Shown piece after piece: positions 25,731 to 36,925 of a stretch of DNA of 37,017 nucleotides. Position numbers and translations under genes: made by a program. The DNA is taken from positions 83,403 to 120,419 of the forward strand of contig JANYJZ010000018.1 in assembly GCA_025358305.1 (NCBI GenBank), read 5' to 3'. Position 1 is the stretch's first letter. Every line of letters begins with the position of its first letter. The notes beneath the pieces were generated by a model. That model saw only the letters and a list, made by a program, of their open reading frames with translations. It did not search any database and had not been told where the DNA came from. This DNA comes from Ignavibacteriota bacterium (lineage in GTDB: Bacteria; Bacteroidota; Ignavibacteria; UBA10030; SZUA-254).

Positions 25731-28700
25731 ATGACAAGATATCGCGCGACGTTTCTCCTCTCTTTCCTCTGTGTGATCTCGACCTCCCTCTATGGCCAGG
25801 AAACACCGTTCGGCAAGAACAAGGTCCAGTACACGAACTTCGACTGGTCGTACATTCAGTCGAGCCACTTTGACGTCTACTTCTCCGCCGGCGGGGACTA
25901 CCTCGCCCAGTTCGCGGCGGACATCGCAGAATCCTCCTATGCCGAGATCAGCAGCCACTTCCACTACCAGATCACGAACCGCATCCCGATCATCGTCTAC
26001 AACTCCCACAACGAGTTCCAGCAGACGAATGTCGTGAGCGAGTATCTCGAAGAGGGGATCGGCGGCGTCACGGAGCTCTTCAAGAACCGCGTCATCCTCC
26101 CCTACGAGGGCGATTACAAGAAGTTCCGCCACGTCATCCATCACGAACTCGTCCACGCCGTCATCAACGACATGTTTTACGGCGGTTCGATCCAGTCGAT
26201 CATCTCGAACAACATCTCGCTCCAGCTCCCCTTGTGGTTCAACGAGGGACTCGCGGAGTACGAGGCCCTCCAATGGGACACGAACTCGGACATGTTCCTA
26301 CGCGATGCGACGGTCCACGAATACCTCCCGCCAGTCCAGTACCTCAACGGCTACTTCGCCTACCGCGGGGGCCAGTCCTTGTGGAACTACATCGCCGTGA
26401 AGTACGGCCGCGAAAAGATCGGCGAGATCCTCACCCGGATCCGCGGCACCCGGAACGTCGACCAGGGATTCCGGGCCGCCATCGGCCTGAGCGTGAACGA
26501 GCTTTCCGAACGCTGGATAAAGGAGCAGAAGGTGCTCTACTGGCCCGACATCGCGAAGCGGGAGGACCCCGCCGATTACGCGCGACGGCTCACCGACCAC
26601 AAGAAGGACGGGAGTTTCTATAACACGAGCCCCCGGCTCTCCCCCCAAGGCGACAGAGTCGCGTTCATTTCGAACAAGGACGACTACTTCGACGTCTTCG
26701 TCATGAACGCCTCCGACGGGTCCGACTGCCAGAAGATCATCAGCGGCCAGAAGACGCCCGACTTCGAGGAACTCCATCTCCTCACCCCCGGCATGGCCTG
26801 GTCCCCCGACGGGCGGCAGCTCGCCCTGTCGGCCAAGAGCGGCGACCAGGACGCGATCATCCTCTACGACCTCCAGAGTGAAAAGGAGGAGAAGCTGGAG
26901 TTCAACCTCGACGGCATCTTCTCCGTCGACTGGGCTCCCCCGATCCCGGGGACGTCGAGCCAGCAGACGAGGCTCGCGTTCGTCGGCGTCCAGCACGGCC
27001 GTTCGGACATCTACGTCTACGACCTCGCGACGAAGGCCCTGACGAACCTCACGAACGACCTGTTCAGCGACCTCGACCCGACATGGTCGGCGGACGGCCG
27101 GACGATCTATTTCGCATCGGACCGCAAGGAGAACCTCACTGCGGCCGCGACGCCGAACCAGTTCAAGATGCAGAACTACGACTACAGCCAGTACGACCTC
27201 TACCGGATTGACCCCGAGACCAGGGCGATCGTGCGGCTGACCGATCTCCCGAAGAGCGACGAGACCTCGCCCGTCGCCGCACCGGACGGAAAGCACCTCT
27301 ACTTCATCTCGGACTTGAACGGCATCAACAACGTCTTCGTCAAGGACCTCGCGACGGATTCGGTGCGTCCCGTGACGAACTCCATCAGCGGCGTCTACCA
27401 GCTCACCTTGTCGCGCGACGGCTCCAAGATGGCCTTCTCCTCGCTCGACAACGGCGGATTCGACCTCTTCCTCAAGCGCTCGCCGCTCGACGCGTCGCGC
27501 GACCGCGCGCAGCTCGAGCCGACGGAATTTGTCAAGCGCATGGCCATGGCCGTCGCCCATCCCGAGACCACCGCCAGAGCATCGCGCGACACCGTCCGCG
27601 TCGGCGACAACGTCCTGATCAGCGTGGGCCAAGCCGACACGTCGCGGCGGTTCACCGACGACGTGAAGATCGACCTCCATAACTACGTCTTCAAGAACGA
27701 CCTTGACGATCAGCACATCGGCCGCGCCGACAGCATCGGGTTCCCCGTGGCGAAGGACAACGTCGACGCCGAAGGCCGATATAAGGTGAACAAGTACAAG
27801 CTCAACTTCTCCCCCGACATCATCTACGGCAACGCCGGCTACAATACGTTCTACGGCGTCCAGGGTTCGACGATCATGGCCTTCAGCGACATGCTCGGCG
27901 ACCACCAGATCTACATCCTGACGAACCTCCTGTTCGACCTGAAGAACAGCGATTACGCGCTGGCGTACCTCTACCTCCCGAAGCGGATCGACTACGGGAT
28001 CCAGGCCTTCCACAGCGCTCGGTTCCTCCTCCTCGACGACACCATCACCGGGCAGAGCGTCTATCGGTTTCGGAATTACGGCATCACGGGGATGGCCGCG
28101 TATCCCATCAACAAGTTCGAGCGCTTCGAGTTCAACCTCTCGTGGTTCAACATCGCCCGGGACAACATGGATTACACGTTCGTCCCGTCGCAGCACCGGA
28201 GCCTCATCATCCCTTCGGTGGGCTACGTACACGACACGAGCCTCTGGGGGATGATCGCCCCCTCGAACGGGAAGCGGTTCAATATCAACCTCATGGCGAG
28301 CCCCAAGATCGGGGGACAGGCCCTGGGGTTCTACTCCATCACGGGGGATTACCGGGAATACCACAAGTACTGGCAGCAGTACACCCTCGCCTTGAGGGTC
28401 GCCGGCGGCGGGAGCTTCGGAGCGGACCCGCAGCGCTTCATCATCGGAGGGGTCGACAATTGGATCAACCGCCAGTTCGAAGGGAACCACATCCCGATCG
28501 AATCGGCGGAGGATTTTGTGTTCCTCACCTCGGGGATACCGCTACGGGGCTACAACTACAACGCGAGGATCGGTACGAAGTACGCGGTGGCGAACATGGA
28601 GTTCCGGTTCCCTCTCCTGGCGTACCTCACGGCGGGGCCGCTGCCGGTGATCTTCCAGAGTTTCAGCGGACTGTTCTTCGTGGACATCGGAGGGGCGTGG

Positions 28701-28898
28701 ACGGGAAGGGATGATTTCCGGGCGTTCGACAGGGACGCCACCGGGAGCGTCTACATGAAGGACCTCCTGATGGGAACGGGCACCGGGGCGAGAATGATCT
28801 TCCTCGGGTTCCTCCTGAAGATGGACATCGCCTGGCAGTTCAACTTGCAGCATTTTTCCGCGCCGAAGTACTACTTCTCGGTCGGCGCCGACATCTAG
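25731..28898 (+). CDS. Gluzincin metallopeptidase - TolB-like propeller - outer-membrane barrel fusion
   Basis: Protein of 1055 residues with a signal peptide (about 1-22, cleavage after LYGQ). Part one (about 35-290) is a peptidase MA-like domain with zinc motif H138-E-L-V-H142 and a third ligand in NEGLAEYEA (Glu172), so catalytically complete. Part two (about 300-600) holds repeated PD40/WD40-like blades (SPQGDRVAFISNKDD, SPDGRQLALSAKSG, SADGRTIYFASDRK, SRDGSKMAFSSLD) as in TolB and DPP-IV. Part three (about 690-1055) is a BamA/TamA-like beta-barrel with aromatic strands. The order suggests a surface- or periplasm-facing protease tethered to the outer membrane, with the propeller as substrate gate or docking surface. 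Similar proteins occur in Bacteroidota/Ignavibacteria but I know of no assigned role. The TAG stop overlaps the stop of the convergent kinase. Confidence 0.85.
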   Translation: MTRYRATFLLSFLCVISTSLYGQETPFGKNKVQYTNFDWSYIQSSHFDVYFSAGGDYLAQFAADIAESSYAEISSHFHYQITNRIPIIVYNSHNEFQQTNVVSEYLEEGIGGVTELFKNRVILPYEGDYKKFRHVIHHELVHAVINDMFYGGSIQSIISNNISLQLPLWFNEGLAEYEALQWDTNSDMFLRDATVHEYLPPVQYLNGYFAYRGGQSLWNYIAVKYGREKIGEILTRIRGTRNVDQGFRAAIGLSVNELSERWIKEQKVLYWPDIAKREDPADYARRLTDHKKDGSFYNTSPRLSPQGDRVAFISNKDDYFDVFVMNASDGSDCQKIISGQKTPDFEELHLLTPGMAWSPDGRQLALSAKSGDQDAIILYDLQSEKEEKLEFNLDGIFSVDWAPPIPGTSSQQTRLAFVGVQHGRSDIYVYDLATKALTNLTNDLFSDLDPTWSADGRTIYFASDRKENLTAAATPNQFKMQNYDYSQYDLYRIDPETRAIVRLTDLPKSDETSPVAAPDGKHLYFISDLNGINNVFVKDLATDSVRPVTNSISGVYQLTLSRDGSKMAFSSLDNGGFDLFLKRSPLDASRDRAQLEPTEFVKRMAMAVAHPETTARASRDTVRVGDNVLISVGQADTSRRFTDDVKIDLHNYVFKNDLDDQHIGRADSIGFPVAKDNVDAEGRYKVNKYKLNFSPDIIYGNAGYNTFYGVQGSTIMAFSDMLGDHQIYILTNLLFDLKNSDYALAYLYLPKRIDYGIQAFHSARFLLLDDTITGQSVYRFRNYGITGMAAYPINKFERFEFNLSWFNIARDNMDYTFVPSQHRSLIIPSVGYVHDTSLWGMIAPSNGKRFNINLMASPKIGGQALGFYSITGDYREYHKYWQQYTLALRVAGGGSFGADPQRFIIGGVDNWINRQFEGNHIPIESAEDFVFLTSGIPLRGYNYNARIGTKYAVANMEFRFPLLAYLTAGPLPVIFQSFSGLFFVDIGGAWTGRDDFRAFDRDATGSVYMKDLLMGTGTGARMIFLGFLLKMDIAWQFNLQHFSAPKYYFSVGADI

Positions 28899-30376
28899 AC
28901 TGTTTCCTTCGCCAGCGGGAGGCGCACGGCGAATTCGCTCCCCCGGCCCGGCTCGCTCGTCACGCTGATGGTCCCGCGGTGGAGTTCCACGATCCAGCGC
29001 GAGATCGAGAGTCCGAGGCCGCTCCCCCCCATATCACGCGACCGTCCCTTGTCCACCCGGTAGAGCCTGTCGAAGATCTTCTCTCGTTCTTCGCGTGGGA
29101 TGCCGATGCCGGTATCCCGGACCCGTATGACCGCTATCCCGTCCTCGTCGCGGCTCGAGATCGTCACGTGACCTTCGTCGGGCGTATACTTCACCGCGTT
29201 GTCGACAAGGTTCAGGACGAGCTGCCGGAGCCTGAGCGCGTCCCCCTCAATCTCGATATCCTCGTTATCCGTGAGCCGGACGCTGATCTGCTTCTTCATC
29301 GCGATGATCTCGCTGTCCTCGAGGAGCTCCGTCATCAGGGGCTGGAGCCGGACGGGCTCGAACCGGACGGTATGCTCGCCCAAGTCGGTCGTCGAGAGGG
29401 TGAGAAGGTTGTCGATGATCGACGAGAGGCGCATGATCTCGTCGAGGTTGCTCACGAGGACCCGCCGGTACTCCTCCGACGTCTTCGGGCTCCTCAGGAC
29501 GAGCTCCACCTCGCCGCGCATGATCGTCAGCGGCGTCCGAAGCTCGTGGGAGGCGTCGGCGGAGAACTGCGTGATCTGGTCGAACGAATGCCGGAGGCGC
29601 TTGATCATGTCATTGAAGGTCAGGATGAGCCGTCCAAGCTCGTCGTTGACGCCCCGGGTCGGGATCTGCTGATCGAGGTTCTGGGCGGTGATCTTCTGCG
29701 CGGCGCGCGTGACGTCGTCGACCGGCCGCAAGGACTTGTTCGCCAGGAACAGCCCCCCTCCGACGGAGACCGCGAGCGCGATCGGGATCATGATGAGGAG
29801 GATCGAGAACAAGTTGTCCAAGACGTCGCGCAGTTCCGAAAGCGGGTACGCCGCGTAGAGCCGTAGGTCCGGCGTCGCGCTCGCGGCCACGCGCCAGTCC
29901 TTCCCCTTGTCGCTCCGGACCGTCGAGAGCTTCATCGAGTCCCCCTGATTGATGTCGACCAGGAGGCTCTCCATCGAGACGCTGAAGGACCGGAAGATGA
30001 CCGCGCCCTTCTTGTCGGTCACTTCGATGAGGGTCTTCTTCGGATTGAGGAGGGCGTGTTCGTAGATCTGGTTCCAGACCTCGTCGTCGGGGTCCTCCGG
30101 CCTGACCTCTTCGGACAGCACGGCGATCTCCTCCCCGGGGGTCAGGGGAGACTTCTTCATGGCGTACTTCCTGCTCGGCTTCACCTTACCTGCCTTCGGC
30201 TGGATGTACCCCTTCACCCACTTCACCTCGTTCACCAGCGAGCGGTCGAGGTTCTCGGAGAGGGTCTGGCTGGAGTACGTATAGGCGACGAGACCAAAGA
30301 CGACGAGCGTCGTCACGAGGATCGTCGAGTACCAGAGCGTCAGCGTGATCCGGATGGACTTGGCGGAGCGTCTCAT
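28895..30376 (-). CDS. Membrane sensor histidine kinase of an OmpR-type two-component pair
   Basis: Protein of 493 residues, ATG 30376 overlapping the regulator stop (ATGA). Two membrane segments (about 10-35 and 187-212) frame a periplasmic sensor of about 150 residues rich in charged residues. HAMP (about 213-265) leads to HisKA with His277 in SADASHELRTPLT, N-box NLVDNAVKYTP, G1 DTGIGIP, F-box IFDRLYR and G2 GSGLGLSI. The kinase core resembles heavy-metal sensors of the CusS/CzcS kind, but the periplasmic domain has no evident metal-binding His/Cys/Met cluster, so the signal is unknown. No metal efflux genes are nearby; the divergent neighbour is the TRAP operon, a possible target. Confidence 0.92.
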   Translation of the reverse strand: MRRSAKSIRITLTLWYSTILVTTLVVFGLVAYTYSSQTLSENLDRSLVNEVKWVKGYIQPKAGKVKPSRKYAMKKSPLTPGEEIAVLSEEVRPEDPDDEVWNQIYEHALLNPKKTLIEVTDKKGAVIFRSFSVSMESLLVDINQGDSMKLSTVRSDKGKDWRVAASATPDLRLYAAYPLSELRDVLDNLFSILLIMIPIALAVSVGGGLFLANKSLRPVDDVTRAAQKITAQNLDQQIPTRGVNDELGRLILTFNDMIKRLRHSFDQITQFSADASHELRTPLTIMRGEVELVLRSPKTSEEYRRVLVSNLDEIMRLSSIIDNLLTLSTTDLGEHTVRFEPVRLQPLMTELLEDSEIIAMKKQISVRLTDNEDIEIEGDALRLRQLVLNLVDNAVKYTPDEGHVTISSRDEDGIAVIRVRDTGIGIPREEREKIFDRLYRVDKGRSRDMGGSGLGLSISRWIVELHRGTISVTSEPGRGSEFAVRLPLAKETV

Positions 30377-31053
30377 GCCTGAGCGGATTCCTTCAGGGCG
30401 TAGCCGACGCCGCGTATCGTATGAAGGAGCTTCTTGTCGAACCCGTCGTCGATCTTGCTGCGCAAGTGGTTGATGTAGACATCCACGATGTTCGTCCCGG
30501 TGTCGAAATTGTAGTTCCAGATGTGCTCGGAGAGGATCGTTCTGGTGAGGACCCGGTCGGCGTTCCGCATGAAGTACTCGAGGAGGGCGTATTCCTTCCC
30601 GGTGAGGTCGATGCCCTTCCCGCTTCGGGTCGCCTTGTGCGTCACCGTATCGAGCTGGAGGTCGGCCAAGGTCAGGACGGTGGACTTTTCGGAGGCGCCG
30701 CGCCTGAGGAGAGACCGGACGCGCGCGAGGAGTTCGGAGAACGCGAAGGGCTTGGCGAGGTAATCGTCCGCGCCCGTGTCGAGGCCATGGACCTTGTCTT
30801 CGGTGGAGCTCTTCGCCGTGAGCATGAGAATGGGGGTCTTGACGCTTTTGGCGCGCAGGGAGCGCAGGACCTCGAAGCCGTCCTTCTTCGGGAGGAGGAC
30901 GTCGAGGATGATGAGGTCGTAGCCCTCGGCCGACGCGAGCGCCTCGCCGCGTTCGCCGTCCGAGGCGATCTCGACGGCGTACCGCTCCTCCTCCAGCCCT
31001 TGGCGGAGGAAGCGCGCGACCTTTTTTTCGTCCTCGATTACCAGAATCCGCAT
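30373..31053 (-). CDS. OmpR/PhoB-family response regulator
   Basis: Protein of 226 residues. ATG 31053 is chosen because the receiver begins MRILVIEDE and a GGAG site lies eight bases before it; an ATG at 31080 would add nine residues with no family support. The receiver has the acidic pair in IEDE, phospho-acceptor Asp51 in ILDVLLP, Thr in MLTAK and Lys101 in AKPF. The winged-helix effector has the family pattern LTGKEYALLEYF, ILSEHIW and VDVYINHLRSKID ... HTIRGVGY. It is cotranscribed with the kinase, whose start overlaps its stop. It is divergent from tatT, with about 150 bp between. Confidence 0.93.
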   Translation of the reverse strand: MRILVIEDEKKVARFLRQGLEEERYAVEIASDGERGEALASAEGYDLIILDVLLPKKDGFEVLRSLRAKSVKTPILMLTAKSSTEDKVHGLDTGADDYLAKPFAFSELLARVRSLLRRGASEKSTVLTLADLQLDTVTHKATRSGKGIDLTGKEYALLEYFMRNADRVLTRTILSEHIWNYNFDTGTNIVDVYINHLRSKIDDGFDKKLLHTIRGVGYALKESAQA

Positions 31054-31158
31054 CGTGTGCTCCAAATGGAATGTACGCAATTGTCCGTCACGGAGGGATG
31101 TTCCTGAAATTAATTTTTTTTAACACCACTCCGCATCGGCGCGTGTCCGGAAGCGCGG

Positions 31159-31187
31159 TTTTACTTCCGGGAAGGTTTTCGTATATT
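31159..31187 (+). promoter_or_regulatory. Predicted promoter of the TRAP operon
   Basis: TATATT (31182-31187) is clear. The -35 at 31159-31164 is a poor TTTTAC with the 17-base spacer. A weak -35 would suit activator control, for example by the divergent response regulator; this is inference. Start of transcription near 31194 favours ATG 31206 or a near-leaderless ATG 31197. Confidence 0.45.
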
Positions 31188-31205
31188 GGAAACATTATGC
31201 ACAGC

Positions 31206-32060
31206 ATGAAAATACCGACCATCCTTCTCTTGGCGACGCTCTTGTCGGGGTGCATCCAGAAGATCGCCATCGGCTCCATGGGTACGATCATGGACAACGG
31301 ATTTGTGGTCATCAACGAGGAGCAGGATCTCCAATTGGCCGGAACGGCGATCGCGTCGGATCTCAAGCTCCTCGAATCGGTCCTCCGATCCGACCCGGAC
31401 AATGACCGGTTCCTCCTTCTGGCCTCGATGGGATACTCGAGCTACGCGCTCGGGTTCGTCGAGGACGACAGCGCCAAGCGCGCCGCTGCACTCTATCTGC
31501 GCGGGAAGGAGTTCGGCATGCGGATCCTCCGGAAGCACGCGCCCGTGCGCGACGCCCTGGCGCTCGGCCCTGACGAGTTCCGCCGCGCACTCGCGACCCT
31601 CTCCAACGACGACGTGCCGGCCGTCTTCTGGACCGCGACGGGATGGGGAAGCTACATCGCCGTCTCCCTCACCGATCCGGAAGCGCTCGTCGACCTTCCG
31701 AAAGTGGAGATCATGATGCGGTTCGTTTTGGAGAAGGACCCGGGGTATTTCTACAGCGGCGCGAATTTGTTCCTCGGCACGCTCTACGGAAGCCGGCCGA
31801 AGATCCTCGGCGGCGACCCCGACACTTCACGCAAGTATTTTGACGAGTGCCTGCGCCGCACGGGCGGCAAGTATCTCATGGCATACTATTACATGGCGCG
31901 GTCGAACGCGGTCCAGACCCTCGACCGGGAACTCTTCGACCGCTGCTTGACGGCCATCGACACGACATCGCTCGACGTCCTGCCCGAGGCGCGACTGTCG
32001 AACGCGGTCGCAAAACGCAGGGCGGCGCTTCTCCGGTCCAAATCCGACGTGTTGTTCTAG
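31206..32060 (+). CDS. TatT-type TPR lipoprotein of a TRAP transporter
   Basis: Protein of 284 residues from ATG 31206; an ATG at 31197 would add three residues. The signal MKIPTILLLATLLSGC is a clean lipoprotein signal with Cys16 as the lipid-modified residue, so it is anchored to a membrane on the periplasmic side. The body is helical with TPR-like repeats and matches the TatT component known from Treponema pallidum Tp0956: it contains motifs like GYSSYALGF near 77-85 and late YYYMARSNAV. TatT trimers are thought to pass ligand to the partner DctP/TatP protein. It is first in a four-gene operon, 48 bp ahead of dctP. It is a substrate of LspA in this window. Confidence 0.85.
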   Translation: MKIPTILLLATLLSGCIQKIAIGSMGTIMDNGFVVINEEQDLQLAGTAIASDLKLLESVLRSDPDNDRFLLLASMGYSSYALGFVEDDSAKRAAALYLRGKEFGMRILRKHAPVRDALALGPDEFRRALATLSNDDVPAVFWTATGWGSYIAVSLTDPEALVDLPKVEIMMRFVLEKDPGYFYSGANLFLGTLYGSRPKILGGDPDTSRKYFDECLRRTGGKYLMAYYYMARSNAVQTLDRELFDRCLTAIDTTSLDVLPEARLSNAVAKRRAALLRSKSDVLF

Positions 32061-32108
32061 ATGGACCGCGCACGGCCCGTTCATTTACTCAGCCAACGAG
32101 GACTGACC

Positions 32109-33161
32109 ATGACTCTTACCATGAAGACCATTATCACCTTCCTCCGCGGTACCGCCGCGGCGGCCCTATTCGCCCTCGCCATTACGGGAGGGCCGCGCGC
32201 CTTCGCCCAGGAGTTCACGCTCAAGTTCGCCACGCTCGCCCCTGAGGGGAGCACGTGGATGAATGTCATGAAGGAGTACGACAAGGCGATCCGCGCCGAG
32301 AGCGGCGGACGATTGGGGTTCAAGATGTATCCGGGAGGTGTCCAGGGCGACGAGAAGGACGTCCTGAGAAAGATCAAGCTCGGACAGCTCCACAGCGCCG
32401 GCATCACCGGGAACGGCATGACGTCCATCGCGCCGAAGGTCCGTATCCTCGACTCGCCGTTTCTCTTCAAATCGTATGACGAGGTCGACCACGTCAACAA
32501 GACCTTCGAAGGGGAGTTCACCACGGCGTTCGAGGAGGGCGGGTTCGTGAATCTCGGTTGGGCCGAGGTCGGATTCATCTATGTGTTCACCAATACGCCC
32601 GTACAGAAGCCGGAGGACATGAACAATGTGAAGATGTGGATGTGGGAAGGCGACCCGATCGCCGAGTCCGCGTTCCAGACGATGAACATCCACGCCATCC
32701 CGCTGACGATCACCGACGTCCTCACCTCGCTCCAAACGAACCTCATCAACGGCGTGTACACCTCCCCCTTAGCGGCGATCGCCCTTCAATGGTTCTCTCG
32801 GGTGAAGTACATGCTCGACGTCCCGTTGGCCGACGCGGCGGGCGCCGTCGTCATCTCCCGCAAGAAGTTCCAGGAGCTCCCCCCAGAGATGCAGGAGATC
32901 CTCGTTCGCAACGGCAAGAAGTACATGAAGCAGCTCACCGAACTGAGCCGGCTGGAGAACGCGAAGTCCATCGAGACCTTGAAGAAGAACGGCATCACGT
33001 TGACACATCCGCCGTCCAAGGAGGTCCTCGCCTCCTTCGATGCGATCGGGACCCGTTCCCGCCGCCTCCTCGTCGGCAAGCTCTTCTCCGACGATCTTCT
33101 CCAGAAAGTGGAAGCGGACCTGTCGGAATTCCGGAAGAACCAGGCCAAGGGCGGGAAATGA
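32109..33161 (+). CDS. dctP: TRAP transporter substrate-binding protein (DctP/TatP type)
   Basis: Protein of 350 residues from ATG 32109 with GAGGA at 32098-32102. It has a signal peptide (cleavage after AFAQ, near residue 34) and the DctP fold: FKMYPGGVQGDEKDVLRKIKLG, KPEDMNNVK, LTSLQTNLINGV and the RKKFQELPPEMQ helix. In sugar-acid and dicarboxylate TRAP proteins a conserved Arg after K-x sits in the site (LKIR); here the equivalent is Trp177 in VKMWMWEGDP. The Arg is thus missing, as expected for a non-classical ligand, perhaps hydrophobic. It delivers the ligand to the DctQ-DctM permease in the inner membrane, driven by a sodium or proton gradient. The TGA overlaps the next ATG. Confidence 0.92.
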   Translation: MTLTMKTIITFLRGTAAAALFALAITGGPRAFAQEFTLKFATLAPEGSTWMNVMKEYDKAIRAESGGRLGFKMYPGGVQGDEKDVLRKIKLGQLHSAGITGNGMTSIAPKVRILDSPFLFKSYDEVDHVNKTFEGEFTTAFEEGGFVNLGWAEVGFIYVFTNTPVQKPEDMNNVKMWMWEGDPIAESAFQTMNIHAIPLTITDVLTSLQTNLINGVYTSPLAAIALQWFSRVKYMLDVPLADAAGAVVISRKKFQELPPEMQEILVRNGKKYMKQLTELSRLENAKSIETLKKNGITLTHPPSKEVLASFDAIGTRSRRLLVGKLFSDDLLQKVEADLSEFRKNQAKGGK

Positions 33162-33700
33162 ACATCCTGAAGGCGCTCGAAAAGGGCCTCCTGGCGCTGG
33201 AGCACTCCGCGATCGTCCTCATCTTGAGCGTGATGATAGTCCTGGCGTTCCTCCAGGTGATCCTCAGGAATTTCTTCTCGGTCGGGTTCCTCTGGGCCGA
33301 CCCCCTGCTTCGGCACGCCGTCCTTTGGGTCGGCTTCATCGGGGCGTCGATCGCGACGCGCAATGAAAAGCACATCAATATCGACCTTGTGACGCGCTAC
33401 ACCTCGCCGCGCGTAACGAACCTCCTCCGGATCGTCACGAACCTCTTCGCCGCTCTCGTCACGTCGCTCCTGGCAAAGGCGGGATGGGTCTTTCTCCAGA
33501 GCGAGCAGCTCACCGCCGACAAGCTCCTGACGATCGGCGCAACCGATCTTCCCGCCTGGTGGTTCGAGATCATCATCCCCGCGGGGTTCGCCCTCATCTC
33601 GTTCCGGTTCCTCCTGAAGGCCGCCGACCACGTCGTCCGGGCATTCCGGCACCAGGAGACGTCGGAGCCGAACCTCCACGTCCCGACGATCGAGCCGTAG
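33158..33700 (+). CDS. dctQ: TRAP transporter small permease
   Basis: Protein of 180 residues; ATG 33158 overlaps the dctP stop as ATGA. Four hydrophobic segments (about 17-37, 46-62, 88-112 and 128-155) with the DctQ-type sequence RNFFSVGFLWADPLLRHAVLW followed by RNEKHINID. It forms the accessory subunit that assists the large permease. The C-terminal tail of about 20 residues is polar. The next gene starts directly after its TAG stop. Confidence 0.93.
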   Translation: MNILKALEKGLLALEHSAIVLILSVMIVLAFLQVILRNFFSVGFLWADPLLRHAVLWVGFIGASIATRNEKHINIDLVTRYTSPRVTNLLRIVTNLFAALVTSLLAKAGWVFLQSEQLTADKLLTIGATDLPAWWFEIIIPAGFALISFRFLLKAADHVVRAFRHQETSEPNLHVPTIEP

Positions 33701-35014
33701 ATGAAGACGATCCTTCTCATTCTCCTGTTCGTCGGCCTCGCGTTCATCGGGGCCCCGCTCTTTTCGATCATCGGGGGCATCGCCGTCCTGGCCTTCCATC
33801 TCGCCGACATCGACACATCGGCCGTCATCGTCGAGCTCTACCGGCTCGCGAGCGCCCCGACGCTCATCGCCATCCCACTCTTCACCTTTGCAGGCTATGT
33901 CCTTGCCGAGAGCAAGACGCCGCGGCGGCTCGTCGCGCTCTCCCAGGCGCTCTTCGGCTGGATCCGCGGCGGACTCGCGGTGGTCGCCCTCGTCTCGTGC
34001 GCGGTCTTCACGGCGTTCACGGGCGCCTCGGGCGTCACGATCATCGCGCTCGGGGGACTCCTCTTTCCGATCCTCCTCCAGGAGAAGTACTCGGAGAAGT
34101 TCACCCTCGGGCTCCTCACGACGTCGGGCAGCCTGGGCCTCCTCTTTCCGCCGAGCCTGCCGCTCATCCTCTACTCCATGGTCGCCTCGAACTCCCGGAC
34201 CGCGTCCGGCGGCGTCCCGGACGTCTCCATCGATAAGCTTTTCGCCGCGGGACTCTTGCCGGGCATTTTGCTCCTGGTGATCCTTGCGGTCTACGCAATA
34301 CGGCAGGGGGCGAAAGGGGCGGTGCCGAAGATCCCGTTCTCATGGAAGAACGTGCGAATCGCGGTACGCGATGCGGCGTGGGAGATCCCACTGCCGTTCC
34401 TCGTCATCGGGGGGATCTACGGCGGACTGTTCACGGCGACCGAGGCGGCCGCGGTGACGGCGTTCTACGTCCTCGTCGTCGAGGTCCTCATCTACCGGGA
34501 CTTGAAGCTCTTCTCGGACGTTCCCCGGATCATGGTTGAGAGCATGGTCCTCGTCGGGGCCATCCTCGTCATCCTCGGGTGCGCCATGGGACTGACTAAC
34601 TACCTCATCGACGAGGAAGTGCCAATGAAGCTCTTCGCCCTCATCCAGCACTTCATCTCGAGTAAGGCTGCGTTTCTCATCCTCTTGAACATCTTCCTCC
34701 TCATCGTCGGCATGATGATGGACATCTTCTCGGCGATCATCGTCGTCGTTCCGCTGATCATTCCGATCGCGACGGCCTACGACGTGAACCCCATTCATCT
34801 CGGCATCATCTTCCTGACGAACCTGGAGATCGGCTATCTCACGCCGCCGGTGGGGCTCAATCTCTTCATCTCAAGCTTCCGCTTTGAAAAGCCGATCTCG
34901 ACGGTGGTCCGGGCGACCCTGCCGTACATCGGCCTCCTCCTCATCGCACTGATGATCATCACGTATGTTCCGGAGCTGAGCCTCTGGATGATCGACCTCC
35001 TCGGGATCCGCTAG
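33701..35014 (+). CDS. dctM: TRAP transporter large permease
   Basis: Protein of 437 residues, ATG 33701 immediately after the dctQ stop. It is an ion-transporter family membrane protein with 11-12 segments. The DctM marks are present: GASGVTIIALGGLLFPILLQ in the first repeat, TTSGSLGLLFPPSLPLILY, and in the second half VVVPLIIPI followed by NLEIGYLTPPVGLNLFI. The two re-entrant hairpins carry the cation sites. An internal loop (about 165-225) with VPDVSIDKLF is longer than usual. It ends 45 bp before the convergent GHL10 gene. Confidence 0.95.
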   Translation: MKTILLILLFVGLAFIGAPLFSIIGGIAVLAFHLADIDTSAVIVELYRLASAPTLIAIPLFTFAGYVLAESKTPRRLVALSQALFGWIRGGLAVVALVSCAVFTAFTGASGVTIIALGGLLFPILLQEKYSEKFTLGLLTTSGSLGLLFPPSLPLILYSMVASNSRTASGGVPDVSIDKLFAAGLLPGILLLVILAVYAIRQGAKGAVPKIPFSWKNVRIAVRDAAWEIPLPFLVIGGIYGGLFTATEAAAVTAFYVLVVEVLIYRDLKLFSDVPRIMVESMVLVGAILVILGCAMGLTNYLIDEEVPMKLFALIQHFISSKAAFLILLNIFLLIVGMMMDIFSAIIVVVPLIIPIATAYDVNPIHLGIIFLTNLEIGYLTPPVGLNLFISSFRFEKPISTVVRATLPYIGLLLIALMIITYVPELSLWMIDLLGIR

Positions 35015-35059: not shown

Positions 35060-36781
35060 TCACTCCACTTGAAAGCGCCGCTCCGCATGGTATGCTCCCG
35101 ATTCCATGACGAGCGTATACCACCCCTTCCTGTACGCCGCGATATTCGCCGCAACGACATACCGCCCCGGTTCCATGAGATCATCGATGACGGCACCGAC
35201 GCGCTGACGTCCCCCGTCGAGGATCGTGATCGCCACGCCCGAGCGCGATGCCACTTCATACGGCACAAGAAGGAGCGATTGCGTCGGAACGGCCTCGCCG
35301 AGAGAGGTCCGAGCCGCAGCCCTTCGCCCGAGCGAAGCGAGTTCCGGCGAAGCGGCCGGGTGCGCCGCCATGAGATCGCTCTCGCGTTCCGCGCGGTCCA
35401 GGACGGAGAGAGCGTATCCGTACGCCGTGCCAGGACGTGCGGTCGAATCGGTATACTCCCCTGCCGAGACTGGCACCACAGCAATGAGCGCCGCCGGGTC
35501 GGCCGCGTTCACCACCGTGCGTTCGCTCCGGTAGACCTTCGCCAGGAGTGGAGCGCTGGGCCCCGGGGCGGCGGGTCTCTGCCACTCGAGGCGCATGCGA
35601 CCGTCCGCGAGCCGAGCGATCCGGACGTCCGCCGGGGGAGCCGGCGGCCGCGCGGATTTCCACGGCATCATCGGGGCACTCGCGAGGTACGGATATTTCC
35701 CGGTGACCGCATCGAGGCCCGAGACGTTCGAGTACCGGAAGAACGCGTGGCCCGCGGCCCCGACAGCGCGCGAAAGATCGATGATCTGGGGAAGCTGCAC
35801 GGCCACTTCAGGCTTATACGCGCCGACGCCGAGGACGATCTGCCGTCCGTACGCATGCCCTGACCACTCCCGGGCGAGCGTGGCGAAGTCGGGATTGCCA
35901 GGGCGCTCCCCGATCGACCAGTACAGCTGCGGTGCGAGGTAGTCGAGAAGTCCCCCGGCGAGCCACCCGCGGGAGTCCTGGTAGACCTCCTCGTACGACT
36001 GGAGTCCGCGGACGTGCTCCGAATTCTTGTAGATGCCGAGGGGCGTCGCGCCGAGTTTCACGAAGGGCTTGATCGCCTGGACCGAATCGTGGAAGACCGC
36101 GACGAGGCGTGTGACGTTGTCTCGGCGCCAATCCGCTTTTGGAGCGCCGCCGCCGTAGCGGCGGTAGGTTGCGTCGTCCGGGAACACATCGGCCGGGTAG
36201 CGAAGGAAGTCGAACTGAAATCCATCGATGTCGTAATTCCGGACGATGTCGAGCCCAACCCGGACGATATACTCCCGGACCTCGGGGATCCCCGGATCGA
36301 GCCACCACTCGCCGTTCGCCAGTGCGGCCCACTCCGGATGACGGTCGACGACATGGATCCCTCCGCCGGGGAGACGCCGCTCCTTGGAGTCGCGGACGAG
36401 GAAGGTGTTGAACCACGCGTGGACCTCCATGCCGTTACGGTGCGCTTCGTCGAGGAGGACCTCCAAGGGATCCCACCCGGGGTCCTTCCCCAGTGTGCCG
36501 GTCAGTTGTTCCGACCAGGGCTCGTAGAGCGACCGGTACATCGCATCGCCCCTACCTCGGACCTGGAAGAAGATCGTGTTGTAGCGCGCCGCGGCGAGTT
36601 CCCGGACGATGGCTTTCAACGATCGCTGCTGCTCCGACGGGTCGACCGACTTCGGCCAGTCGAGCCCGAGGACTGTCGTGATCCAGACCGCGCGGACCTC
36701 GCGCGCCGGGACCGAGGCTTGGGAAAGCCCGAAAGAGGCACTGAGAAAGAGAATAAGGAGCGTTCGGCGCATGGAGAACAT
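35060..36781 (-). CDS. Secreted GHL10-type glycoside-hydrolase-like protein with FN3-like domain
   Basis: Protein of 573 residues from ATG 36781; a second ATG at 36772 is possible. The open frame runs up to 36907 but that part contains the promoter. A signal peptide (about 1-22, ending LSQA) leads to a GHL10 (DUF187) TIM-barrel: REVRAVWITTVLGLDWP (28-44), YNTIFFQVRGRGDAMY, GMEVHAWFNTF and YDIDGFQFDFLRYP (183-196), where the acidic cluster near the barrel C-terminal ends is likely catalytic. It is related to YngK of Bacillus. The exact linkage is unknown; members have been linked with cell-wall glycans. After about residue 380 comes an FN3-like segment (PPADVRIARL ... YGYALSVLDRAE) and a C-terminal beta-rich domain. 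Confidence 0.88.
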   Translation of the reverse strand: MFSMRRTLLILFLSASFGLSQASVPAREVRAVWITTVLGLDWPKSVDPSEQQRSLKAIVRELAAARYNTIFFQVRGRGDAMYRSLYEPWSEQLTGTLGKDPGWDPLEVLLDEAHRNGMEVHAWFNTFLVRDSKERRLPGGGIHVVDRHPEWAALANGEWWLDPGIPEVREYIVRVGLDIVRNYDIDGFQFDFLRYPADVFPDDATYRRYGGGAPKADWRRDNVTRLVAVFHDSVQAIKPFVKLGATPLGIYKNSEHVRGLQSYEEVYQDSRGWLAGGLLDYLAPQLYWSIGERPGNPDFATLAREWSGHAYGRQIVLGVGAYKPEVAVQLPQIIDLSRAVGAAGHAFFRYSNVSGLDAVTGKYPYLASAPMMPWKSARPPAPPADVRIARLADGRMRLEWQRPAAPGPSAPLLAKVYRSERTVVNAADPAALIAVVPVSAGEYTDSTARPGTAYGYALSVLDRAERESDLMAAHPAASPELASLGRRAAARTSLGEAVPTQSLLLVPYEVASRSGVAITILDGGRQRVGAVIDDLMEPGRYVVAANIAAYRKGWYTLVMESGAYHAERRFQVE

Positions 36782-36814
36782 GTTCGTGAGCGAGTGCTGG
36801 TAAAAAGACAGGTT

Positions 36815-36843
36815 AATATAGGCCCGAAGCCGAAGACAATCAA
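36815..36843 (-). promoter_or_regulatory. Predicted promoter of the GHL10 gene
   Basis: On the minus strand TTGATT (36843-36838) and TATATT (36820-36815) have a 17-base spacer, identical in both hexamers to the promoter before yggS. The leader to ATG 36781 is about 27 bases. Confidence 0.65.
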
Positions 36844-36896
36844 GCGAAAAATGGGCGAAACATGACGAATGGGGCGACAGAAATCGGGGAATTCGA

Positions 36897-36925
36897 TTGA
36901 CTTTCAAAAAGAATTACGTTATATT
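36897..36925 (+). promoter_or_regulatory. Predicted promoter of the gene entering the right edge
   Basis: TTGACT (36897-36902) and TATATT (36920-36925) with a 17-base spacer, matching the hexamers before the TPR gene. It is divergent from the GHL10 promoter. Confidence 0.65.

Follow-up and report, generated by a model that had tools for sequence, protein, structure and literature searches.

A TPAT-type TRAP transporter operon with tryptophan at the ligand arginine site of DctP in an Ignavibacteriota bacterium

Tripartite ATP-independent periplasmic (TRAP) transporters of the classical DctPQM kind (4p47, SiaP, IseP) have a binding protein, DctP, with an Arg/Arg/Asn clamp. Arg152, Arg173 and Asn213 of 4p47 are described as almost completely conserved carboxylate-binding residues (PMC11668362; this paper and those below are cited from excerpts). 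The ligand arginine is located on strand 6 of DctP (PMC5812351) and was present in 5943 of 6142 DctP sequences, the commonest replacement being Phe (PMC4646407). A binding protein without this arginine is a published mark of TPATs, the TRAP transporters that have a tetratricopeptide repeat (TPR) partner protein, TatT (PMC4646407, PMC5812351). In the TPAT of Treponema pallidum (TatT Tp0956, TatP Tp0957, permease Tp0958), the arginine site of Tp0957 is Ala and the pocket is hydrophobic (PMC4646407). A hydrophobic pore and cleft have been described in this system and a role as lipid chaperone proposed; TPATs were reported in 35 other species, and TatP homologs mostly have Ala (PMC5812351). Hand-over of ligand from FadL-like channels has also been proposed (PMC8407342). 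A relative of the T component, BstC of Methylococcus, binds sterols; the partners with which it has been studied are an MMPL-type transporter and a phosphonate-type binding protein, and DctPQM is not among them (PMC10942540). Methylocaldum carries a Treponema-like TRAP cluster with a fused permease (PMC11931723). Here we describe a TPAT operon on a 37,017 bp stretch of contig JANYJZ010000018.1 of an Ignavibacteriota bacterium (this whole stretch is "the window" below), in which DctP has Trp at the arginine site.

The operon occupies 31206-35014 on the forward strand of the window and consists of four co-directional genes in the order TatT-DctP-DctQ-DctM (Table 1). The dctQ start overlaps the dctP stop (ATGA), and the first base of dctM directly follows the dctQ stop. 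An earlier sequence-only reading had proposed a TPAT-type operon headed, as in Treponema, by a TPR lipoprotein of the TatT type. Pfam matches place all four genes as that reading had them, and the first gene agrees with TatT in family (PF16811), in its lipobox (LLSGC, read in the window sequence) and in its fit to T. pallidum TatT. Lipoproteins of this kind are anchored in the membrane and face the periplasm. The TatT model (mean pLDDT 91.1, with the first 18 residues below 50) has a TPR-like helical ring. It superposes on T. pallidum TatT 3u64/4di3 with a Z score of 28.8 and a root-mean-square deviation of 2.2 over 251-252 residues, and on 8g52 with Z 28.6. The next match is the sterol binder 7t1s, or BstC (Z 18.9), which shares a common superfamily with the window TatT; the modeled fold stands clear of other TPR proteins.

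With TatT encoded together with a DctP-type binding protein that lacks the ligand arginine, the operon is a TPAT. At an E-value of 0.01 DctP matches only NF037995 and TIGR00787 and not the TAXI-type binding protein model (TIGR02122), although the same NCBIfam library does recognize the TAXI protein of another locus, L205. The DctP score is 297 against a cut-off of 50 for the broader NF037995, and 86.6 against 175.05 for TIGR00787. DctP has a signal peptide ending in AFAQ, which puts the mature protein at residues 34-350, and has neither a lipobox nor a cysteine. In T. pallidum, the P component is a lipoprotein and the permease is a single QM gene (PMC5812351), whereas here DctQ and DctM are separate. 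The two systems are alike in having TatT, an Arg-less DctP and a permease, in the fold of TatT, and in the loss of the whole clamp, but T. pallidum has Ala at the clamp where the window has Trp. Classical DctPQM systems share the DctP fold (Z up to 35.6) and the DctQ and DctM families with the window; they have the Arg/Arg/Asn clamp, while the window operon is without it and has TatT in addition.

Relatives were compared as 80 named loci, the best 80 of 389 stretches picked by likeness to a profile of DctPs with Trp at the clamp (W-type). The nearest named relatives by the window DctP are metagenome-assembled genomes labelled Ignavibacteria, Ignavibacteriae, Bacteroidota and similar. TatT was found in 76 of these loci and DctM in 74, and DctQ and DctM are separate frames in all 74 in which both were found. 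A strict lipobox pattern is passed by 36 of 73 named TatT relatives, and of the 37 failing ones the four displayed also have Cys there. One locus (L123, genome G042) has a broken-up operon, with TatT on the opposite strand, away from DctP-DctM and with its own histidine kinase and response regulator adjoining. Another (L191:7314-8471) encodes a TatT-family protein (PF16811, 96.5 bits) with no TRAP genes recognized within the 15 kb stretch; the adjoining frame is, we take it, phosphofructokinase-like.

The replacement of arginine by Trp at DctP residue 177, as put forward in the sequence-only reading, is borne out by alignment. Within the motif VKMWMWEGD, Trp177 aligns with the KIR arginine of classical DctPs, and in the model (mean pLDDT 96.3) it is residue 144, on a short strand (142-146). 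The column is Trp in 80 of 80 named loci which, having been picked by a W-type profile, speak for uniformity of the clade and not for rarity of other types. In a redundant set of 126 loci (some fetched twice, and L001 and L002 being the window itself), 116 of the 117 rows covering the column have Trp, the sole exception being a paralog with Arg (L044). Such conservation rules out chance as the origin of Trp177.

Beyond this residue, the columns of 4p47 Arg152, Arg173 and Asn213 hold Ile157, Trp177 and Thr218 in the window DctP, so that none of the three clamp residues is kept. Across 40 W-type rows, the Arg152 column is Val (37) or Ile (3), the Arg173 column is Trp (40), and the Asn213 column is Thr (26), Ser (6), Ala (3), Gly (2), Cys, Ile or Val (1 each), with no Asn. 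The corresponding residues are Leu/Ala/Ser in Tp0957, and Ser or Val, Phe, and Thr or Ser in proteins with Phe at the clamp (F-type; four rows, two proteins each twice). The same alignment retains Arg/Arg/Asn in three DctPs that are not linked to TatT (L136, L137 and L139). Judged from these columns, the whole carboxylate clamp is gone, and not Arg alone.

Loss of the whole clamp would fit the earlier suggestion that the ligand is not a simple organic acid. That the operon is an ordinary organic-acid TRAP transporter, with another residue substituting for the clamp arginine, we consider highly improbable. SiaP Arg147 mutants do function at high substrate (PMC4646407), and all 80 named loci have Arg112. 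In the alignment Arg112 is present in 38 of 40 W-type rows, and four Arg-type rows have Gln, Gly, Lys and Ser there. Against this stand the joint loss of three clamp residues and the column of Glu212, beside the clamp Asn, where all 40 W-type rows have Tyr (Tyr217 in the window); a weak site would also hardly be fixed across a clade. An arginine from elsewhere filling the site, which the sequence-only reading had named as a counter-explanation, finds no backing in the alignment, which shows loss of the second clamp Arg and of the clamp Asn too, but the invariant Arg112 keeps it from being fully closed.

TatT and DctP are widespread among the relatives of the window. TatT is present in 55 of 60 relatives, a set that includes the source genome, and DctP in 57 of 60; the source genome (3.2 Mb) has one match to each. 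Of 296 genomes drawn from the window's phylum, 20 have a TatT match; in 16 it is above the cut-off, and all 16 belong to the window's order or class. In the phylum reached through L064, which is labelled candidate division KSB1, TatT was found in 22 of 82 genomes. The genomes searched were those of the phylum to which the window belongs, nine that had been named by way of loci, and the phylum of L064; spirochaete and proteobacterial TPATs are not among them. The sequence-only reading had spoken of a second lineage with the TPAT arrangement; the arrangement is there, but the counts in the relatives and in the KSB1-labelled phylum show this to have been an understatement. A plasmid search gave no match to TatT at an E-value of 0.01, and for DctP only relatives below 60% identity in 477 records. 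Among 165 DctP frames from 184 loci (also redundant), 150 have Trp with TatT, 6 have Trp without TatT in view, 5 have Arg without TatT, 2 have Phe with TatT, 1 has Arg with TatT, and 1, a truncated frame, has a gap.

In a tree of 51 rows, the 40 W-type proteins fall on one side of a branch (support 100/99). Tp0957 joins two F-type proteins (98/89) as sister to the W-type clade. W-type, F-type and Tp0957 together (43 rows) are separated from classical DctPs at 100/99, with L044 in between. Tp0957 (5.64), 4pfr (3.56) and L044 (1.81) were flagged for long branches and the composition of Tp0957 is odd, so the positions of Tp0957 and L044 are provisional. Taken at face value, the TatT partnership would predate the loss of the clamp. 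In the two F-type loci (L186:7222-11090 and L187:3311-7298), a long permease frame, of 607 and 614 aa respectively, comes after TatT-DctP. The 607 aa frame holds both the DctQ and DctM domains, and the DctPs of these loci group with Tp0957.

We propose that the TatT lipoprotein would pick up a ligand of low solubility in the periplasm and hand it to the soluble, clamp-less DctP, which would pass it on to DctQM, where import would be ion-driven. Because the clamp positions are now uncharged and mostly non-polar or aromatic (Ile157, Trp177 and Thr218, the last with Tyr217 beside it), this ligand is probably hydrophobic, or at any rate one that is not gripped through a carboxylate. We judge this the likely function of the operon. 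The hand-over from TatT to DctP is suggested by homology to the solved Treponema complex, and the coupling ion, like the ligand class, is put forward conditionally.

Several observations weigh against this reading or leave it without direct help. The acidic pocket residue (Asp76 in 4p47, Glu82 in the window) is retained in the 40 W-type rows (Glu in 36, Asp in 4), so the pocket is not wholly non-polar. L044 (L185:4584-8404, G033:C17) is a TatT-linked DctP with the full Arg/Arg/Asn clamp and DctM nearby; thus, partnership with TatT does not require a clamp-less pocket. A single-sequence search of the PDB gave classical proteins as the best matches of DctP (4p47, 94.8 bits; Tp0957, 48 bits). The DctP model fits TatP and classical DctPs alike: 3u65 has Z 33.2 and ranks 43 of the 50 rows displayed, the best being 35.6. 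Fold comparison was set aside as a way to tell TatP apart, since 3u65 does not stand out from classical DctPs. FadL as a partner channel proved uninformative, as a match is present in 60 of 60 relatives (59 above the cut-off), with or without TatT. When the 1710 frames of the 80 named loci were clustered, the families in at least 20 loci held no clue to the ligand, and no TPAT permease with a known ligand was found in the literature covered.

The retained acidic residue also bears on a different possibility, a TPAT whose ligand is not a lipid but a small polar non-carboxylate bound by aromatic side chains, for example an amino alcohol or some other compound that is neutral or cationic. An Arg-less TRAP protein, Csal_0678, has been solved with ethanolamine (PMC4646407), and a cation could be held by Trp and Tyr together with the acidic residue. 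This reading seems to us rather unlikely. The Treponema TatT has a hydrophobic pore and a sterol-binding relative exists, and a small soluble ligand would have no obvious need of a TatT chaperone. We infer that a hydrophobic ligand remains the best-supported choice.

Table 1. Features of the operon and of the divergent two-component pair; positions are those of the window.
Feature	Position	Strand	Evidence
TatT, TPR-type T-component lipoprotein	31206..32060 (start 31206 or 31197)	+	PF16811 E 8.6e-70; model fit; lipobox
DctP (TatP-type) substrate-binding protein	32109..33161 (ATG 32109)	+	PF03480 E 1.7e-38
DctQ small permease subunit	33158..33700	+	PF04290 E 2.4e-26
DctM large permease subunit	33701..35014	+	PF06808 E 1.2e-83; above TIGR00786 cut-off
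OmpR-type response regulator, divergent from tatT	30373..31080	-	above TIGR01387 cut-off
Sensor histidine kinase, HAMP-HisKA-HATPase	28895..30376	-	domain matches
Operon promoter (predicted), TTTACT - 16 nt - TATATT	31160..31187	+	pattern and spacing recur upstream of TatT in relatives
Ile157 codon, column of 4p47 Arg152 (first clamp Arg)	32577..32579	+	alignment
Trp177 codon, column of 4p47 Arg173 / SiaP Arg147	32637..32639	+	alignment
Tyr217 and Thr218 codons, columns of 4p47 Glu212 and Asn213	32757..32762	+	alignment

A two-component pair is encoded divergently from tatT. Relatives of the response regulator occur in 35 of the 80 named loci and those of the histidine kinase in 36; in the additional locus, L064, the kinase match has 23% identity and lies on the opposite strand. 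Where TatT has 1200 bases or more in front of it (67 loci), a strict distance rule finds the regulator divergent in 26. The regulator scores above the NCBIfam heavy metal response regulator model (TIGR01387; 290.5 against a cut-off of 279.2), whereas the kinase falls below the partner model of that regulator (253.8 against 292.55). The 116-base divergent region was inspected by eye only, and no regulator site is claimed there. A scan of 4.5 kb gave two such promoter-like sites, against 0.8 expected in shuffled sequence, and TTTACT-16-TATATT taken alone is weak. Across both strands of the 80 named loci (898 kb), TT[TC]ACT-N16-TATATT has seven matches, in each case upstream of tatT (L047, L048, L049, L051, L052, L053 and L054). 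The sequence-only reading had taken the divergent pair and a weak -35 as signs of regulated expression. Both the pair and the site are present, but since the pattern recurs only upstream of tatT, the -35 is a conserved feature of near relatives and part of their promoter. In the window (31182-31206), and likewise in L047, L049, L051, L052 and L053, 9-22 bases separate the end of the -10 box from the likely tatT start codon, so the transcript is predicted to have a very short leader. From the conserved neighborhood, we infer that the pair may regulate the operon.

A different gene row was found in three genomes of the KSB1-labelled phylum (L188:1556-8077 in G377, L189:2263-8653 in G376 and L209:2060-8222 in G378). 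It consists of an unidentified protein (307-349 aa), DctP, a kinase (1093-1103 aa) with Reg_prop, HisKA and HATPase domains, and TatT. The DctPs are W-type, with the motif KVWAW and Trp at the clamp. No DctQ or DctM adjoins in these stretches of 8.4-16 kb, and the contigs of L188 and L209 end shortly past TatT. The sole PF06808 match in G377 adjoins a TAXI-type binding protein, as does the only strong match in G378 (a second has 28 bits). These loci, like L044, qualify the import reading. Together with the regulator divergent from tatT in 35 of the 80 named loci, they also lend something to the notion that the TatT-DctP pair is mainly a receptor that signals through the neighboring kinase, with transport secondary. 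We hold this to be improbable. The presence of DctM in most of the named loci favors transport, and the window kinase shows no Reg_prop domain. G376 has two further strong PF06808 matches, of which the first belongs to a classical DctPQM row and the second (L207) has no recognized binding protein in its stretch, and assembly gaps could hide a permease. A related and tentative proposal, rather unlikely in our view, is that W-type TatT-DctP is a receptor module for hydrophobic ligands that is separable from the permease. It would feed a Reg_prop kinase in some bacteria of the KSB1-labelled phylum, and in Ignavibacteria would both load DctQM and inform the divergent histidine kinase.

The sequence-only reading had suggested a survey of the genes next to TatT-linked operons. 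Such a survey identified conserved genes, but nothing that points to the ligand. The families in at least 20 of the 80 named loci are DctP, TatT, DctQ, DctM, the histidine kinase and response regulator, a Peptidase_MA/Omp85 gene, GHL10, and otherwise only overlapping frames; annotation covered these clusters, and those in 16 loci or fewer were left unannotated. Genomic neighbors were therefore rejected as a ligand clue. In the window, the Peptidase_MA/Omp85 gene (25731-28898, forward strand) encodes a protein of 1055 aa with a Peptidase_MA-like domain, WD40-like propeller repeats and an Omp85-type barrel, with a relative in 23 of the named loci. The GHL10 glycosyl-hydrolase-like protein (35060-36907, reverse strand) is convergent with dctM and has a relative in 20.

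As the loss of the arginine in TPATs is already published, Trp is a variant and not a new principle. A Trp-type TatP was not found in the literature searched, which is weak evidence of absence as that literature left out the alignments of the founding TPAT papers (PMC3289903, PMC3367087). No TRAP transporter or DctP of Ignavibacteria was in print among the matches listed. The operon is a TPAT of known architecture, marked by a distinctive, clade-wide Trp and by a carboxylate clamp lost in full. What TPAT permeases carry is a matter still unsettled. An environmental clade with Trp in every member read and a compact operon offers many orthologs to purify and compare, and the Phe-type, the Ala-type and the one Arg-bearing TatT-linked protein are natural contrasts. 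The kinase-linked version without a neighboring permease would show that the receptor half is usable alone. Thus, the Trp clade makes the question of what Arg-less TRAP proteins carry directly testable by experiment.

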